Positions 11,260 to 33,091 of a stretch of 33,744 nucleotides of DNA are shown one piece after another. Position 1 is the first letter of the stretch. The number at the start of each line of letters is the position of its first letter. Where the stretch lies: positions 1 through 33,744 of the forward strand of contig JAHISS010000005.1 in assembly GCA_018817905.1 (NCBI GenBank). Reading direction: 5' to 3'. Origin of the DNA: Nanobdellota archaeon. Its GTDB lineage: Archaea > Nanobdellota > Nanobdellia > Pacearchaeales > GW2011-AR1. A model generated the notes under the pieces. It worked only from the letters and a program-made list of their open reading frames with translations. It made no database searches and was not told the origin of the DNA. Position numbers and translations under genes: made by a program.

Positions 11260-11469
11260 AGATTATGAAAGCAGATAGCGTATAAAAGATTATCGCAAAA
11301 CAACTTTCTGTGTTTCATCAGGGCATTCTCAATTTAACACACTGTAGAGTGAAACTCCCACCGTTCGCTTCGCTCACTTCGCTAAGCTGCGGAGCTTCAA
11401 AAATCAAAAAACAATCATTATCAACAATACATATCCCAATCGACTCTGGTTTATATGATAATCTCTGGT

Positions 11470-11535
11470 GGGCGAGCTGAGTCAGTTTAGTAAAAGAATG
11501 ACAAATAAGAACTGGCTCGGGGAGTTAGGAGGCAT
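11470..11535. repeat. Hairpin repeat homologous to the hairpin at 27336-27390
   Basis: GGGCGAGCTGAGTCAGTTTAGTAAAA...ACAAATAAGAACTGGCTCGGGGAGTT closely matches the sequence at about 27331-27392. Confidence 0.75.
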
Positions 11536-17873: not shown

Positions 17874-17989
17874 GTCCCGGTAGCTCAGCTGGTTAGAGCG
17901 CGTGGCTGTTAGTGTGAGAAGCTTTGCTTCAAATACGTTAGCAAATAGCAGATACCATGAGGTCGTTGGTTCGAGTCCAGCCCGGGACG
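17874..17989 (+). tRNA. tRNA-Asn(GTT) with a 42-nt intron at 17912-17953
   Basis: Acceptor GTCCCGG/CCGGGAC, T-arm GTTGG TTCGAGT CCAGC, anticodon stem CGTGG/CCATG. Intron lies between positions 37 and 38, with a BHB helix CTGT/GCAG flanked by 3-nt bulges. Confidence 0.92.
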
Positions 17990-17994
17990 TTTCT

Positions 17995-18290
17995 ATTTTG
18001 ACAAGTTACCCCTCCACCTCTACAAATCCAACTAATCCGATATTATCCAAAACTCAATTAATGTTGCATCCGATTGGTTTTATTATTAATCTAATGAGTT
18101 GGTTGGAAGTGAAACTATTTTTTCACAAGTTAATGCCCTTCGGGCAGCTCCATCTTCTTAGCAGATTTTTTCGATTATTGAATTTTAATTTCGAGGGCGG
18201 GAGCTGGAGGCGGTCGAAATTCAAATTCGATGGGTGTGCGGGACGAATGTCGAAAAAATCTGCGTTTATACTTTAAGTACAGAAAATTAA
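17995..18290. repeat. Mosaic intergenic repeat, copy A (core plus tail hairpin)
   Basis: Core resembles the copies at ~20.15, 27.0 and 28.85 kb. Tail is bounded by GCAGATTTTTTCGA (18161-18174) and TCGAAAAAATCTGC (18250-18263). Confidence 0.8.
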
Positions 18291-19889: not shown

Positions 19890-20265
19890 ACAGTATCTCC
19901 GCACAAGAAGAAAAATTTGAAAGTACAATGCGGAAATACTGTCCCGCGGCGTTGTCCGGAGTTCGTTGGTTCTACTAATTAATTGGAAACACAAATACGA
20001 ATCGGGTGAGTTTTTCTTCGTAGAAGAAATGTTAGCGGGATTTGAGAACCAACGAAAAGACAATTTCGGACAAAACCGTTTCCCATCTTTCAGCTCAACA
20101 GCCATAACCAAGATATCGAAGTTCACTACGTTCACAAAATTGAAAAGTACAAGTTGCCCAACCCGCCAAACTCTAACCAACCTAAAAATTATCACAAATC
20201 CAACCAGTATTATACTCCTGATTGTTTTATTATTGAGCGGGGAGGTGGTTACAACTGAAGCTATT
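19890..20265. repeat. Mosaic intergenic repeat, copy B
   Basis: ACAGTATCTCCGCACAAG is identical to 27221-27238; nested inverted repeats to 20073; core copy at ~20148-20260. Confidence 0.75.
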
Positions 20266-23538: not shown

Positions 23539-26500
23539 CTACAATCTCTGCAAATAACCTTTCCGCGGCTTGAAAATATCTCCTGACTTTGAAAGCTGGT
23601 CAACTGCGTCGTCAAGTTCAGTTTTTGTCATTTTTCCTTCAACAGCTTTCTCTAGTTCTTCAACAGGAATCAACTTTCCAAGGCGACTTTCCAATTGAGA
23701 TAATATCTCTTTAACTAATAAAATCTTGCCCCTCTTCGAAGATGTAATCCCAGTTGTAATTCTATCCACATCAAAAGATTTAGTTTCTTCGTCATAACCA
23801 ACCTGCATCAGAGAAAATTTCAAAAGGTCGATAGCAACACGCGCATCTTCTGACTTCACTTCCTCGCTCAACCTCATCTTAGCATGCGCCTCGCTCAACC
23901 TGACCAGACCTTCCAACTGCCGCGCAGTAATTGGAATCGGCTTTATCTCGCTGTCCGACCGCCCGGGCTGACCTCTCAGCTTTAAGTAAAATCTCTTTAT
24001 TTCTTCAATCGCCTCGTCCGTTAATTTCGGCTTTATTCTCTGGCGCGCATAAGCAATATATTTTCTTAACAATTTAGAATCCACAACATCTCTCACAACC
24101 CCTTGCTTGTGCTCTTCCAAAACATGCGTTGCAACTGCCTCGTCCTGTTTCTTGTTCGGCAAATCCCGAATTACAAAAAGAACATCAAACCTTGTCAACA
24201 AAGCCGGTGAAATATCAATTTGTTGCGGAATTGGGGTGTAAGGATCAAACCTCCCAAGCTTAGGATTCCCGGCAGCCAAAACAGTTGTCTCTGCCCGCAA
24301 GGTCGCGTGAATGTTTGCTTTTGCAACTGTGACAGAATTATGCAAAACCATCCCATTTGAAATAAAACTATGCGTCGGCTCAACAGTAACATCATAAACA
24401 TATTTTATCCTCGGATTTTTTACCTTTTCAACAGATTTTATTTTCATCCACCGAGAAGAACCAAAAGCTAACTTCTTAATTCTCAATAAATCTTTCTTGA
24501 TTTTAGAATCACAAATGTTTTTTCCCGCCATTTTCTGCTCAGCAATCAACACTAATTTCCGCAAATGCTTTCTCTGCTTTTCTACATGTAAATCAATACT
24601 ATGTCCAAGCTCTTTATTCATTGAAATTCCTAACTTCTTATAAATCCCACTTATCAAATCAGTGCATCCGGGAATTATGTCTTTAATTGTGCGATAAGTT
24701 TTTTTCAACTCAAGATATTTCTTCAATCTTTCTTTTTTCTTTGTGGAAAGAAAACTAATTTCCATTAAGAATGATCTTAAATTCTCTTGTCCAGAAATAT
24801 CCAATCTCCAAACTTTAGAATGAGAATCTATAAAAATAGATGATTGAATCCCAAATCTCAATAACAAATCCGAAACCTGTTCAACCAACGCCCGATTTTG
24901 AGAAACAAATGAAATTCTACATCCATTTCGCTGTTGGAAAATAACACTGCCATCTCCATCGTAAAGGGCTCTTAACAAATATTTTATATTTTCATTCGGC
25001 AAGCCCATTATTTTTTCCGGAATTTTTTTCACATCACCTTTCTCCAACAAACTCTCATCCAACTCCATCATTTGTTCAAAAACTTTTTTCGAAATAACCC
25101 TTGAAGCAAACTGGTGTTTTCTCCTAACGATTTTCGGTTTAACATTGAAATATTTTTCAACTGCAATGTTATAATCTTTAATTAAAATCTCGTCATTGTT
25201 CCAAAACTGAATGCCTGTTTTTTTCCCTTTGTTCAGCTCATAACAACCATCACTAATGTGGTATCCGAGAACCTTACATAGATAATCATTCTTTTTTTCG
25301 TAATCTTCTGTTTTGAACTCAGTTTTTGAAGGTATCGGAAAGTACATTCCTTCTTTCAACTTAACAGCAGGAACTGTGAAAATCTTTCCTTCATTAGTAA
25401 CCCAACAAGGATGCTCCGGTGTAACAGTCAATTCTCTCCCATTAGTCAAAACAATCTTAACAAACTCTTTTGAGGCGATATGTCTGCTCACCTTAGAAGC
25501 CTTTAAGGAAAATATATTCGAAAAATCAGTTGATAAAAGTTCTAAATCTTCAACAGGTAAAATCTCACAGTCCCTTCCGTTCATTATTCGGTCTTTATTT
25601 TTTTCCATCAAATTATCCACTAATTTCCCTATCTTTTGTTTAGAACCATCAGATAAAGTGATTTCAAAATCTGGCAAATAGCATTGCTGTTCCATTGCCT
25701 CGTGCATTGTGCTCCTGTCGTGTTCTTCCATTTTTTCAATTTCATCAATGCAAACAACTCCTTTGTTAGACAAAACCATTGCTCCACCTTCCAAACTCCA
25801 GCCTCGCAAAAACTCGTCCTTGACAACAGCCGCAGTCAACCCAGCTGCCGTAGCTGACTTTCCAGAAACATACCTTCCCTTCGGAGCAATTGTAGATGCA
25901 TATTTTAACAACACCGATTTTGCTACGCCAGGGTCCCCGACAAGCAAAACATGAATATCTCCCCGCGTCATCCCGCCGTCTGACTTTTTCTTCTTCACTC
26001 CACTAAACAACTGCAAAAGCACAGCTTGCTTAATCTGCGAATAACCATAAATGCTCGGCGCAATGCTCTCGCTCAATCTCTTGAAAATATTCGGGTCTGC
26101 CGCCAACTCTTGAATCTGCGTCACGTCTTCATCAGACATTTCCAACTCATCAAAAGTTTCTTCCATTGAAATTGTATTGTTCGCTTCCAAAGCAATGTCA
26201 AACCGCGTTGAAATCGAACCTGTCTGCAGAGGCATTGCAACTTCCTTCAAAATCCCGTAAATCTTCACCCGGCTCCCGGGCGTTGTCTTTTTTTCCATCT
26301 TCACATCAACCAAATCCTCTTTCAAAAAAACATTAATTCTCCTCGGCTGTTCTCCACCTTCTAAAGTATCTGGCGATTCCTCAACAACAAGTTTCTGAAC
26401 GTCAACCATTTCCTTGCTCAACAATTTGAAATTCCCTTTCCACCCGCAAGAACATCTGCTCGGCTCTCTAAACTTTCTTTCAATTTGCAATACAGATAAA

Positions 26501-26922
26501 ATCGCGCCGCAGTTCGGGCATTCAAACCTTGCATTGACAACCTGCGGTCTGACCTCGCTCGCCTGTCTGACAATCCCCTCAACCGCAACAAGCCTATCCA
26601 AATGTCTTGCTCTAATCGCCCTAACCATAACATTACAACTCTTAGGAAGTTCAACCAGTCTAACTCGCGGATTAGCCACCAAACCAGATTCCTCCAACGC
26701 CAACTCCAAAATCGCAACTGTCTCTTCCGGCAGTTCCAAAACATTTTCAGCCAAAACCGGCGAAAACGCAACTAACTGCTCAAAATCAAGCCGCACAATA
26801 CCTTCCTCCCGCCGTATCGACTCCCCAATTTCCTTCCTGCAAGAATTAAAAAAGCCCTTCGCCTCCATCATCATGTCCTCTTTCTTCTTCTTCGGCCTCT
26901 GTTTCTCCCCTGTTTCATCCAT
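23539..26922 (-). CDS. mcm: Replicative helicase MCM with an in-frame intein
   Basis: LVGDPGVAKSVLLKYAS Walker A, CIDEIEKM Walker B, LLTRFDVLFVIRD; intein between HEAMEQQ and SVTVAKANIHATLRAE. Confidence 0.95.
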   Translation of the reverse strand: MDETGEKQRPKKKKEDMMMEAKGFFNSCRKEIGESIRREEGIVRLDFEQLVAFSPVLAENVLELPEETVAILELALEESGLVANPRVRLVELPKSCNVMVRAIRARHLDRLVAVEGIVRQASEVRPQVVNARFECPNCGAILSVLQIERKFREPSRCSCGWKGNFKLLSKEMVDVQKLVVEESPDTLEGGEQPRRINVFLKEDLVDVKMEKKTTPGSRVKIYGILKEVAMPLQTGSISTRFDIALEANNTISMEETFDELEMSDEDVTQIQELAADPNIFKRLSESIAPSIYGYSQIKQAVLLQLFSGVKKKKSDGGMTRGDIHVLLVGDPGVAKSVLLKYASTIAPKGRYVSGKSATAAGLTAAVVKDEFLRGWSLEGGAMVLSNKGVVCIDEIEKMEEHDRSTMHEAMEQQCYLPDFEITLSDGSKQKIGKLVDNLMEKNKDRIMNGRDCEILPVEDLELLSTDFSNIFSLKASKVSRHIASKEFVKIVLTNGRELTVTPEHPCWVTNEGKIFTVPAVKLKEGMYFPIPSKTEFKTEDYEKKNDYLCKVLGYHISDGCYELNKGKKTGIQFWNNDEILIKDYNIAVEKYFNVKPKIVRRKHQFASRVISKKVFEQMMELDESLLEKGDVKKIPEKIMGLPNENIKYLLRALYDGDGSVIFQQRNGCRISFVSQNRALVEQVSDLLLRFGIQSSIFIDSHSKVWRLDISGQENLRSFLMEISFLSTKKKERLKKYLELKKTYRTIKDIIPGCTDLISGIYKKLGISMNKELGHSIDLHVEKQRKHLRKLVLIAEQKMAGKNICDSKIKKDLLRIKKLAFGSSRWMKIKSVEKVKNPRIKYVYDVTVEPTHSFISNGMVLHNSVTVAKANIHATLRAETTVLAAGNPKLGRFDPYTPIPQQIDISPALLTRFDVLFVIRDLPNKKQDEAVATHVLEEHKQGVVRDVVDSKLLRKYIAYARQRIKPKLTDEAIEEIKRFYLKLRGQPGRSDSEIKPIPITARQLEGLVRLSEAHAKMRLSEEVKSEDARVAIDLLKFSLMQVGYDEETKSFDVDRITTGITSSKRGKILLVKEILSQLESRLGKLIPVEELEKAVEGKMTKTELDDAVDQLSKSGDIFKPRKGYLQRL
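24337..25683 (-). mobile_element. MCM intein (449 aa) with LAGLIDADG-type homing-endonuclease motifs
   Basis: Starts CYLPDFEITLSDGS, ends THSFISNGMVLHN|S; VLGYHISDGC and LLRALYDGDGS are LAGLIDADG-like. Confidence 0.93.
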
Positions 26923-26949
26923 GCGCTTTCAAATTACATCTTGTTTATA

Positions 26950-27540
26950 TGGTTTGTTGTTGTGTGGCTTTATTGTGGCACACATAAGTTACCTGCCTAA
27001 TTCTAACCAACCAAAAGATTATCCAAAAGTCCACCAGCATTATAACCCTGATTGATTTTGTTATTAATTGGAGGGCTGGCTATAATTAAAACTATTTTTT
27101 TAAAGATTATATGCTATAAGTTAATACTCTTCAGGCAGCTTCATTTTCTAAGAAAACTTTGCAGAATAAACCAAATGCACTAAACAGCAAAGTTCTCTTA
27201 GCAGATTTTTTCGGTTATTGACAGTATCTCCGCACAAGCTGAAATATAATCTGGACGTTTTGCAGCAAATTTCCCAAATCGTGCGCAGAAAAAAATTCAG
27301 CATCGGAAACAGTGCACGATTTGGACCAAAGGGCGGGCGAGCCGAGTCAGTTTAGTAAAAAAGAACAAATAAGAATTGACTCGGGGAGTTGGGTGGGAAG
27401 CAAAACGTCCCAAAAAATTTCCGTGCGGAGATACTGCATTGAATTTTAATTTCGAGGGCGGGAGGTGGGGGCGGTCGAAACTCAAATTCGAAAGGGAGGG
27501 CGGGACGAATATCAAAAAAATCTGCGTTTATACTTATACA
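26950..27540. repeat. Mosaic intergenic repeat, copy D (core, nested hairpin, nested MITE-like element, tail hairpin)
   Basis: Core and tail homologous to copy A. Shares a perfect 28-bp AAACTATTTTTTTAAAGATTATATGCTA (27089-27116) with copy E (28931-28958). Confidence 0.85.
27221..27437. mobile_element. Putative 217-bp MITE-like insertion nested in copy D
   Basis: CAGTATCTCCGCAC/GTGCGGAGATACTG terminal inverted repeats flanked by ATTG(A). Copy A has the uninterrupted site TTATTGAATTTTAATTTCGAGGGCGGG. Confidence 0.65.
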
Positions 27541-27553
27541 GAAATAACTCCAA

Positions 27554-27587
27554 TTACTTTAATAAGTAACGAAAGTTATTTAAATAA
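27554..27587. promoter_or_regulatory. Candidate operator/promoter upstream of the wHTH-NTase gene
   Basis: TTACTT-TAAT-AAGTAA dyad and perfect palindrome TTATTTAAATAA, about 20-50 nt before the ATG. Confidence 0.4.
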
Positions 27588-27605
27588 GTAATCTTAATAA
27601 AATCA

Positions 27606-28223
27606 ATGTTATCAAACGAGAAAGTAATGTTGTTAGAAGTATGGAGAAAGAATCTATTTAGAGAACTAAGCATAGCAGAGATTATGAAAGAATCAGGGAA
27701 AAAAACAAAAACCTGGGTTTTCAACGCGTTAAAATTATTAGTTAGTAATAATGTTTTAAATTCGACACGAAAAGCTAATCTTGACATTTACAGATTTAAC
27801 TTGGAAAATCCCCTGTCTTTGCAGTTACTGCAATATTTAGAAGCCCAAAGCAACTTGAGCTTTTCACAACTAAATATTATATCTGAAATAATTGAAAAAA
27901 TACCAGTTAAAAACTGCTCGATTATTGTGTTTGGCAGTTATGCAGAAAATAAGCAGACAAAGAACTCTGATTTGGACCTTTGTATACTTATAGAAAATAA
28001 AGAAGTTGAAAAGAAAATTAAGCCGTATATTAATGAAATAAAATTAAATCATCCCATAAAAATTGATGAGCATTACGTAACTTCTGAAGATTTTGTAAAG
28101 ATGCTTTTGCACGAAGAAGAAAACCTTGCAAAACAAATTTTTATAAAGCACAGACTATTTTATAACTCTGACACGTATTACCAATTATTAAAAGAGGCAT
28201 ATAAGCATGGATTCAGATCGTAA
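27606..28223 (+). CDS. wHTH plus MNT-type nucleotidyltransferase
   Basis: N-terminal HTH-like LSIAEIMKESGKKTKTWVFNALKLLVSNNVL, then IIVFGSYAENKQTKNSDLDLCILIE. Confidence 0.85.
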   Translation: MLSNEKVMLLEVWRKNLFRELSIAEIMKESGKKTKTWVFNALKLLVSNNVLNSTRKANLDIYRFNLENPLSLQLLQYLEAQSNLSFSQLNIISEIIEKIPVKNCSIIVFGSYAENKQTKNSDLDLCILIENKEVEKKIKPYINEIKLNHPIKIDEHYVTSEDFVKMLLHEEENLAKQIFIKHRLFYNSDTYYQLLKEAYKHGFRS

Positions 28224-28698
28224 AGAAGTGCTATATTTGAATAGGGCAAAGAACGAATTGGATTTGGCCAACGCCGTGTTCAAAATTTCAACAGAGACGA
28301 AGATTAAACTTGATTTGGAGCTGAAAGAAGATTCAACATTTTTTAGCAATGTGATAAGCAATTCATATTATTGCATATTCTACTCCGCAAAAGCGTTTCT
28401 TTATACTAAAAGAATAATCACAATGCCGCCGGAAGAACACAAAAAAACGCTGGAGGAATTTGAGAAGTTGGCGGATTCTGGAGAAATTGATGAAGAGCTT
28501 GTCAATATATACAAAGATATTGTAATAAAGGCAGAAGAGCTTTTAGGAATTTTTGCAAAGGAAAAATCAAAGCGTGGAAAGTTTACGTATAGAATGTTAC
28601 CTCAAACAAATCTTGGCCCGGCAAAAGAAAGCTTAGAAAATGCGGAAAAGTTTTACAAAAATATCAATCTTATTGTAAGCAGAAATAAAACTAAATAA
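28207..28698 (+). CDS. HEPN-domain protein
   Basis: Overlaps the NTase by 17 nt; NVISNSYYCIFYSAKAFLYTKR and a C-terminal SLENAEKFY helix are HEPN-like. Confidence 0.75.
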   Translation: MDSDRKEVLYLNRAKNELDLANAVFKISTETKIKLDLELKEDSTFFSNVISNSYYCIFYSAKAFLYTKRIITMPPEEHKKTLEEFEKLADSGEIDEELVNIYKDIVIKAEELLGIFAKEKSKRGKFTYRMLPQTNLGPAKESLENAEKFYKNINLIVSRNKTK

Positions 28699-31053: not shown

Positions 31054-32568
31054 CTACTCAATCGCAAACCTAAGTATCGCCCCAACACCTTTGGTCAAAT
31101 TCCAAAACTGCTCGCCGTCTGTATGGTCAAATCCAATAACAAAAACCGCAGACCCAATGTTTTCCGCTTTCTTCTCAAACTCTTTTTCCTTATCTCGGTC
31201 CCATTTTTTAGACAACAGCAAAACTTCAACAGCTCCGCGCTCCAGCGCAGTCAAAACCTCTTTCTCTCCATAAGCCGCCATCTTTCTATCCTTCCCCAGC
31301 GTCTCAAAAAACCTCTCAACAAGTTTCTTTTCTTTCACTAACTCTTGTTCTTGAATCTCGTTCTGCGACGCCTCAACCAACAGCTCCAAGCCATGCTCAT
31401 CAACATAACCCAAATCCTTAATCGAAATAATCTTCTCCTTCAACTTTGTAACCAACTGCCCCTCGTCAAGAAAATCCTCTTTCGTCGGAATCGGCCCGCC
31501 AACCAAAATCCCTTTCAGCTTCGGCATTTCAAAAAATATCTTCTTCATCTCTTCCGCAACTCTCCTAAAAAATTCTTTTGCCAAACCTTCAGTGATGCGA
31601 TGAAATCTCTGCGAAGAATTGTGGACTAACAAGCCATTAGCAAGAAAGTTTTTATTTTCAACTTCTATATCAATCAAATTGCCTTTGTTTACAGCCTTAT
31701 CAATAGATAATATTCTAATTAGCTTACCTCCCCTTGTAATTAAAAAATCTCCGACTTTCAAATCCGAAGCAGCCCTTTCAGTAATTTTATTCTCGGTATG
31801 AACATAAAAAATATGGTCCAAAGAACAATCAATTTGAGAAGATGGATATTCCCCATTAGTTATTATCAATAAACATTCCCTTTTATTTACTAACCATTTT
31901 TTTATACATTTGTTAAAAGTTTTTTTCAAACTATTGAATTCTATTCCCTCTATTAAATCTCCTTCCTTTATATCAGATAATTTTATCTCCCCGTTATCTT
32001 TCATAATCAATGTGTCGGGAGATAAACACTGCCCACCAGCCCGAACCTTCCCCGGAACACCAGACGTCAACTTTTGCAACCTTTTTATCTGGCTTCCTTC
32101 CAACAAACCAATCATAGCTTGCTGCCTATCAATCACAAGCAGACCATAAAGCTCCTGCACCGACGCCATTTCCTTCAACGGCTCAATAACAAATTCCTGG
32201 TCGCATCGATAAATCTTTACATTCAACGACTTCGGCGGCTCATAAACCCACAACTGAATATCCTGCCCGCCTTCTCGTTCAGAAACATTTCCGCAATAAA
32301 TCGCCAACCCGTTAGGGGGCGCCTGCTTCATCCCTTTCAATTCCCGAATAATCATCTCAAGCGCAGCAATAACATTTTTCCTCGTCGCTGCCGACTTTAT
32401 ATTCGACGCCGTGCTCTTCTCTCCCTCCAACTGCCGCGTCACCAAATTAACATTCGCCCCCGCAGGAATCAAAACAGTAACCAACTCAGTATGCCTGCCC
32501 TTGATACTTCCCAGCAGCTCAATCAAATCCTCAAGCTTCTGTTTTTCCCTAGCCTCAAGTTCTGCCAT
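31054..32568 (-). CDS. prf1: Peptide chain release factor aRF1 with an in-frame mini-intein
   Basis: eRF1 family: VPGKVRAGGQ|...|SSQRFHRITEGLAKEFFRRVAEEM, GILVGGPIPTKEDF. Confidence 0.95.
   Translation of the reverse strand: MAELEAREKQKLEDLIELLGSIKGRHTELVTVLIPAGANVNLVTRQLEGEKSTASNIKSAATRKNVIAALEMIIRELKGMKQAPPNGLAIYCGNVSEREGGQDIQLWVYEPPKSLNVKIYRCDQEFVIEPLKEMASVQELYGLLVIDRQQAMIGLLEGSQIKRLQKLTSGVPGKVRAGGQCLSPDTLIMKDNGEIKLSDIKEGDLIEGIEFNSLKKTFNKCIKKWLVNKRECLLIITNGEYPSSQIDCSLDHIFYVHTENKITERAASDLKVGDFLITRGGKLIRILSIDKAVNKGNLIDIEVENKNFLANGLLVHNSSQRFHRITEGLAKEFFRRVAEEMKKIFFEMPKLKGILVGGPIPTKEDFLDEGQLVTKLKEKIISIKDLGYVDEHGLELLVEASQNEIQEQELVKEKKLVERFFETLGKDRKMAAYGEKEVLTALERGAVEVLLLSKKWDRDKEKEFEKKAENIGSAVFVIGFDHTDGEQFWNLTKGVGAILRFAIE
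31618..32028 (-). mobile_element. aRF1 mini-intein (137 aa, no homing endonuclease)
   Basis: Starts CLSPDTLIMKDNGEIKLSDIKEGD; block B CSLDHIFYV; block F/G LIDIEVENKNFLANGLLVHN|S. Confidence 0.95.
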
Positions 32569-32599: not shown

Positions 32600-33091
32600 T
32601 TGGGTCTCTGTTCTATTGATACAGAAACAAGATTCATGGTTGCTTCTGAATTTACGAAGCATAGGGGTACGAAAGAGTTTAAGCAAGTTTTAAGACAAGC
32701 AAAGAAGAAAACAGAAAATCAAATCTCTGTCATTACAAGTGATGGGTTGATGGCATACCCACAAGCTATTCAAAAAAGTTTTACGATAAAGAAGAAAAGC
32801 AATACAGGAAGATTCGGAGTTATTCACAACCAAGTCAACGCTTCAAAAGGCGAGGGCTTTAACATCAAGATTGAAAGGTTGCACAACAGCGTTAGGCACA
32901 GAATAAAAACATTTAGGGGCTTTCACGGTTCAACCGATAGTGCAAACACAATAATGAAAGGTTGGGAGATTCATTATAATTTCATCAGAAAGCATTTGGC
33001 TTTGGGGAAAACTCTGAGTGAGTTGGCTACGGATGTTAAGTTGAATGGGGATAATAGGTGGTTGGAGTTGATTAAGTTGAGTTGTATTTAA
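32600..33091 (+). pseudogene. 5'-truncated IS6-like DDE transposase
   Basis: SIDTETRFMVASEFTKHRGTKEF, VITSDGLMAYPQAI, ERLHNSVRHRIKTFRGF, W..HYNFIRKHLALGKT. The N-terminal HTH and first DDE segment are missing; an in-frame stop lies just upstream. Confidence 0.8.

Follow-up and report, generated by a model that had tools for sequence, protein, structure and literature searches.

Prokaryotic MITEs are short and non-coding: they have inverted repeats derived from an IS, a target duplication, an intergenic location and a stable foldback (PMC10969869), and in each of these features they resemble the family described here, which we call F1. Palindromic elements of the IS200/IS605 type (PATE/REP), by contrast, have neither inverted ends nor a target duplication, both of which are present in F1. 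On the side of the autonomous elements, the ISH3 family, which was split from IS4 and is mostly archaeal, is recognized by ends that read CRGT, by direct repeats 4-5 bp long and by a transposase motif of the form Y-2-R-3-E-3-R (PMC2266710). F1 agrees with ISH3 in end type and repeat length, and the matching autonomous elements that we found in relatives have the motif; the element that we studied in detail differs from ISH3 ISs in that it is 215 bp long, lacks a transposase and has an interior that is absent from the ISs. What lies between the transposase-recognized ends of a MITE is generally regarded as filler; here the interior is conserved and the ends are exchanged.

The element lies in a 33,744-nucleotide stretch of DNA (the window), which is contig C104 of the home genome, a bin that totals 1.19 Mb over 140 contigs and is 82% complete. 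The host is a Pacearchaeales-type DPANN archaeon, a setting in which mobile elements are little described. The assemblies compared are bins, fragmented for the most part and with many members at contig ends, and all copy numbers given below are minimum values.

Results

Limits and fold of the window element

The window member of family F1 occupies positions 27222-27436 and is given on its G-rich (+) strand. It is bounded by 14-bp terminal inverted repeats, with CAGTATCTCCGCAC on the left (27222-27235, + strand) and its exact reverse complement on the right (27423-27436, - strand). A first-pass annotation, made from the sequence alone, had drawn an insertion of 217 bp running from A to C. The perfect 14-bp repeats that it described are present, and the sequences that it quoted and its inner inverted pairs were all found where it had placed them, but about 20 other members fix the ends at C...G and the length at 215 bp. 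The sequence itself, comparison with the interrupted repeat (F2, below) and the flanks of other family members place the target duplication at 27216-27221 (TATTGA, that is, the 5-bp ATTGA plus one base) and at 27437-27442 (CATTGA). This duplication is imperfect, and can be read either as ATTGA with one offset base or as TATTGA/CATTGA with one change; of the 4 or 5 bp originally proposed, the value of 5 bp holds across the family, with an occasional 6.

No ORF of at least 80 aa overlaps the element, in keeping with the annotation's view that it has no coding capacity. The annotation had also proposed a branched structure, and folding predicts a stem from which two main hairpins branch off. The RNA fold of the window element has an energy of -85 kcal/mol, where shuffled sequences average -51.8 (z = -7.6), and its DNA fold is likewise more stable than those of shuffled sequences (z = -5.5). 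With dispersed inverted-repeat ends, a duplication of constant length, no transposase gene and an empty site, 27222-27436 is, with near certainty, a non-autonomous DNA transposon, that is, a MITE.

The F1 family

Searching the home genome for the end CAGTATCTCCGCAC with at most one mismatch returned 28 sites, compared with none for a reversed control, and with at most two mismatches 41 sites against two. Many other elements with these ends were found when the inverted-repeat pair was searched genome-wide, as the first-pass annotation had recommended. With a 225-nt query, three copies were recovered from the home genome in full and many others in part; covariance model R2 recognized 19 members there. 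One subfamily, of 215 bp, comprises the window element and the copies on contigs C7 and C83; a second, of about 163 bp, comprises those on C17, C51, C67, C78, C89 and C116; chimeras and decayed forms also belong to F1. Among 25 members in three species, target duplications of 5-7 bp were exact in 13, and 20 had a duplication with no more than one mismatch; cross-pairing the flanks of different members gave zero matches in 2000 shuffles. Five members (C7, C83, C124, C51 and C89) have no clear duplication. Nearly all members (22 of 23) are intergenic.

A direct DNA search for the element in 95 relatives yielded no real match. The family confined to one genome that this search suggested was countered by end-pattern and covariance searches. 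Elsewhere in the genus, about 20 members occur in G001, while the few G009 elements that share the ends have no core. A 51-bp relative in the window, at 19891-19941 (+ strand), was found by the end search; it too has the same ends and no core, and its flanks are TCCCA/TCCCG. Several F1 members of G001 (L108, L109, L111, L113 and L114) have further long hairpins nested inside them, which amounts to a third nesting level.

Insertion into an older foldback repeat

The window element sits within one copy (copy D) of another repeat, F2. As comparison of F2 copies shows, the left part of copy D lies at 27198-27221 and its right part at 27438-27544 (both + strand). Copy A, at 18125-18290 (+ strand), is uninterrupted, with the empty site TTATTGAATTTT at 18175-18186. 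When copy A was used to search the genome, the insertion point proved to be unbroken in seven F2 copies, namely copy A itself (window 18158) and those on C137, C60, C128, C98, C17 and C31, which read through as GATTATTGAATTTTAA (one with G for A). The empty site that the annotation had pointed out in the window is thus the majority state in the home genome, with seven empty copies against a single occupied one, copy D. We therefore conclude that the element was inserted into copy D and that copy A did not arise by deletion from a D-like ancestor, the event that the annotation had named as its own refutation. In principle, a DDE transposase can excise an element precisely and could in this way have emptied copy A and the other F2 copies of a D-like ancestor, but seven of eight copies would have to have lost the insert and none of them carries a scar, which makes such a history extremely improbable. 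The nesting of the F1 element within F2 is nearly certain, F2 being the older foldback repeat that received the 215-bp unit.

Some further features of the F2 copies can be recorded here. Covariance model R3, built on the F1 core described below, has a weak match inside copy A (18164-18260, E = 0.015). A repeat unit that abuts F2 at 18040-18121 also occurs alone about 20 times in the genome. Relative to copy A, copy D has an extra 50-bp hairpin at 27150-27199, AAGAAAACTTTGC...GCAAAGTTCTCTT, an arm of which is like the ends AGAGAACTTTG on either side of the PF01609 transposase of C41 (L087, 1027-2175); by this resemblance, the hairpin may be a mini-MITE of the C41 IS.

A probable ISH3-like source of the ends

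ISs with matching ends, which the annotation had proposed looking for, are present in relatives. In G145, almost every contig end found has the CAGTATCTCCGCAC end at a distance of about 100 nt, a pattern that we read as the signature of a collapsed multicopy IS, and matching flanks there carry the 5-bp duplications TTTGA, AAAAT and CATGC. The body of this IS was not found in the G145 bin, where the ends alone occur, and a wider contig scan for it returned the same contigs and one of G009. A 581-bp internally deleted IS in G009 supplied a peptide that led to complete elements in relatives, of about 1.38 kb in G031, 1.28 kb in G130, 1.25 kb in G158 and 1.11 kb in G024, all with CAGTATCTCCG-type ends and a transposase of 339-355 aa.

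The best NCBIfam family for these transposases is ISH3 (4.5e-27, 95 bits), at a score below the equivalog cut-off of 225. CAGT is found at both ends of the window element, the duplications are typically of 5 bp and in some cases of 6, and the Y-2-R-3-E-3-R motif is present in the transposases of the relatives (YKKRWRIETQFR, YKKRWQIETNFR and YPKRWCIETGFR). Since ISH3 is the best family and its published features are all found, but the cut-off is missed, we call these elements ISH3-like. From the ends, the duplications, the empty sites and the matching IS in relatives, all of which are observed, we infer that an ISH3-like DDE transposase, supplied in trans in the past, would have recognized the CAGTATCTCCGCAC ends and moved the 215-bp unit into F2, leaving a duplication of about 5 bp.

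An ISH3-type transposase was not found in the available 82% of the home genome, so present mobility there is unsupported; the family may be dormant at home, or the IS may lie within the missing 18%. Transposases of the IS4 type encoded at home were considered as drivers and rejected, as the PF01609 matches on C92 and C41 are without the end.

A conserved core within F1

The interior of the element contains a core at 27253-27410 (+ strand), which model R3 detects in the window with E = 2e-7 and which covariation supports. Its closing stem, P2 (27253-27263/27400-27410), surrounds a hairpin and a G-tract hub. The hairpin, P3 (27274-27324, + strand; arms 27274-27284/27314-27324), has an A-rich loop that is conserved across subfamilies in our alignments. 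The hub, delimited by comparison of members, spans 27331-27397 (+ strand), where GGGCGGG (27331-27337) and GGGTGGG (27391-27397) are split by a further hairpin, H2a. From the closing stem P2 (...TTTGC/GCAAA...), the core continues with P3 and, after a short linker that reads ATCT in sister species, a hub such as GGGCGGGCGGGTGGG.

Between the subfamilies the stems are rewritten with their pairing kept: both sides have changed in 13 of 37 pairs, against a shuffled mean of 4.1 (0 of 500 shuffles). In a core-only set from five species, both-side changes affect 14 of 20 pairs against 7.2 in shuffles (again 0 of 500) and 37 cells against 9.7, and sliding the partners destroys the signal. As many as 97.9% of cells in this set are paired, a percentage biased towards the structure around which the alignments were arranged, so that the double changes are the stronger evidence. 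The letters of the P3 loop and the G-tract hub, which are unpaired, are conserved while the stems are replaced.

These data bear on the simplest account of the interior, according to which F1 is an ordinary MITE filled with a decayed remnant of its parent IS that has no special structure. Such an origin would agree with the MITE-type ends and duplications, and the internally deleted IS of G009 is a case in point; yet the interior is unlike the end of the G145 IS past the terminal bases, the fold is conserved across species and the covariation disfavours decay, and we consider this account very unlikely.

Taking a G4 motif as four tracts of at least 3 G with loops of 1-7, we found an uninterrupted motif of the GGGCGGGCGGGTGGG type in the hub of most short members. 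When folding was made G4-aware, P2, P3 and the G4 were predicted together in all seven of the short cores tested, with a gain of 19-33 kcal/mol. An uninterrupted G4 motif is absent from the window copy, for which the predicted fold includes none. Across 140 kb of home sequence, on contigs mostly chosen for carrying F1, there are 11 canonical G4 motifs compared with 0.1 in shuffles, and seven of them are in F1 members.

The core-only model R3 has 19, 18, 12, 3 and 4 matches in five species of the genus. Outside the genus, in the rest of the family (187 searched, with stricter filters), there were only three matches (1.6e-5 in G038, 0.0035 in G145 and 0.0085 in G213), which are borderline and not relied on. 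Minimal stem-hairpin-G4 motifs of 66-67 nt with no recognized ends were seen in other genera, at G145:C28:4593-4659 (L248) and G038:C5:2560-2625 (L247).

The same core under IS5-type ends

The covariance model of the whole of F1 also found members in G002, G003 and G008, genomes without CAGTATCTCCGCAC ends, and most of the cores there adjoin GGCTYTGTTGAAAA-type ends. One of them, G008:C92, has a 9-bp duplication, ACAAAATTC; a G003 foldback with GGCTYTGTTGAAAA-type ends upstream of mcm has the duplication TTTTAATGG; and an IS of G008 with GGCTYTGTTGAAAA-type ends encodes an IS5-family transposase that scores above the cut-off. On home contig C31, at 24705, IS5-type ends occur together with the hub and H2a. 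In sister species the F1 core is thus carried by IS5-family elements with GGCTTTGTTGAAAA-type ends, which resemble IS903 ends; they differ from F1 in having other ends, 9-bp duplications and another transposase. Within the genus, MITEs belonging to two unrelated IS families have one core in common. This conservation of the interior across MITEs of different ends, as seen in G002, G003 and G008, goes beyond anything the first-pass annotation had described.

In each of five species (G000, G001, G002, G003 and G008), one or more foldback elements lie just upstream of mcm (window 26922-27600; L273-L276), which suggests that this region is an insertion hot spot. Comparison of sister loci, another check proposed at the outset, found that other foldback elements are present upstream of mcm in four species and that the window element is absent from all four. 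Vertical inheritance of one core at this position was rejected: the copies in G001 and G002 are opposite in orientation, and the foldbacks of G003 and G008 are their own and have ends of the IS5 type, which makes separate insertions the likelier history.

The elements lie upstream of genes, mcm among them in five species, a location that could also be expected of a structured RNA, selfish or useful to the host, that hitch-hikes in MITEs as a small ncRNA gene or regulator, and a conserved loop with covarying stems is the usual sign of one. However, no Rfam match was obtained over the core, even at relaxed thresholds (a sub-threshold hairpin match at 27143-27206 falls outside it), the orientation of the core to mcm differs between G001 and G002, and a G-tract hub can equally act in DNA. 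We therefore regard an RNA function as unlikely.

The G-tract hub as a putative exchange point

The hairpin H2a (27342-27384, + strand), which the annotation had listed as an inner inverted pair of the element, proved to be a separate recurrent module. Genome matches show it alone or in other element families too, at about 15 other places that include the F2 copy at C31:4352 and a second window copy in another element context at 11467-11532 (+ strand). In C33 and C8, a different hairpin occupies the H2a slot. Two members change affiliation at the hub. C103 belongs to subfamily 2 before the hub (87%) and is closer to subfamily 1 after it (84% vs 73%); C124 belongs to subfamily 1 before the hub (94%) and to neither subfamily after it. 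In the F2 copy on C98, the sequence from one GGGCGGGA tract to another is deleted. The 5-bp duplication of the C103 chimera is intact, which argues against an assembly error. Together, the hairpin swaps, the breakpoints in C103 and C124 and the C98 deletion make the hub look like a point of recombination or template switching.

Template switching is documented to make and maintain hairpins (PMC8794818), and the covarying stems might themselves be passive. Intrastrand switching that repairs long quasi-palindromes during replication would copy one arm onto the other and give a fold without function, and as both arms are rewritten at once, covariation can arise without selection. The recombinants with breakpoints at the hub, the C98 deletion between GGGCGGGA tracts and the many nested hairpins all fit this process, but it leaves unexplained the conserved unpaired P3 loop and G-tract hub, as well as the recurrence of the core in both chassis and its fainter recurrence in other genera. 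A purely passive origin is accordingly a serious possibility, although in our estimate a somewhat improbable one.

Other features of the window

The mcm gene of the window (23539-26922) contains an intein with LAGLIDADG and splicing domains, and its frame of 1127 aa compares with about 680-694 aa in nine sister species. Adjoining the element, at 27606-28698, are genes for a nucleotidyltransferase (MNT) and a weakly matched HEPN protein, a pair that is likely a toxin-antitoxin system. A release-factor-like gene at 31054-32568 gives the impression, from its sequence, of being broken by an intein-like insert. Near the contig end, at 32600-33091, is a fragment of a transposase gene that matches the IS6 family in part (9e-12, below the cut-off). 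A tRNA of 116 nt at 17874-17989, longer than normal, was found by Rfam and missed by ARAGORN; it probably contains an intron.

Discussion

Taken as a whole, the locus is very probably best explained as an ISH3-type MITE with a structured foldback payload. The payload is the foldback core, in which P2 encloses P3 and a series of G-tracts that could fold into a G-quadruplex. G-tract hubs and stems would swap between elements through template switching or recombination, and the fold could aid the persistence or movement of an element, for example if DNA at a paused fork or in single-stranded form became exposed while the genome is replicated. Exchange at the G-tracts combined with a benefit from the fold is, we infer, the likeliest reason for the shared core. 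It seems that unrelated elements hand the interior on to one another and that its shape is what is retained, whether the core is a selected fold or a product of template switching.

In a more far-reaching form, the foldback core could be a transferable module selected for shape, a parasite or a helper of MITEs from two or more unrelated IS families (ISH3-like and IS5-like) in one archaeal genus and perhaps further, with the hub as the exchange point through which it acquires new hairpins and ends. We put this forward as a tentative proposal that stops a little short of being probable. If the fold is selected, F1 offers a testable case for the role of DNA (or RNA) shape, including the G-quadruplex, in the success of non-autonomous elements. 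The family is also useful for asking whether hairpin covariation comes from selection or from template switching. We found no description of such a core in the open-access papers searched, which is weak evidence of novelty.

Three described systems allow a closer comparison. The TIMEs (PMC4133298) are mosaic non-autonomous elements that arise between related units, as appears to be the case here; they are derived from Tn3, and the comparison with F1 concerns their mosaic make-up. Recurrent G-quadruplex motifs in prokaryotic repeats, which F1 also has, are known from Xanthomonas and Nostoc (PMC4692102), where they form simple sequence repeats, whereas the G-tracts of F1 stand at a fixed position in a foldback. 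Finally, in comparison with the prokaryotic MITEs described previously (PMC10969869), what distinguishes the present case is that one internal core is common to MITEs of two unrelated IS families.
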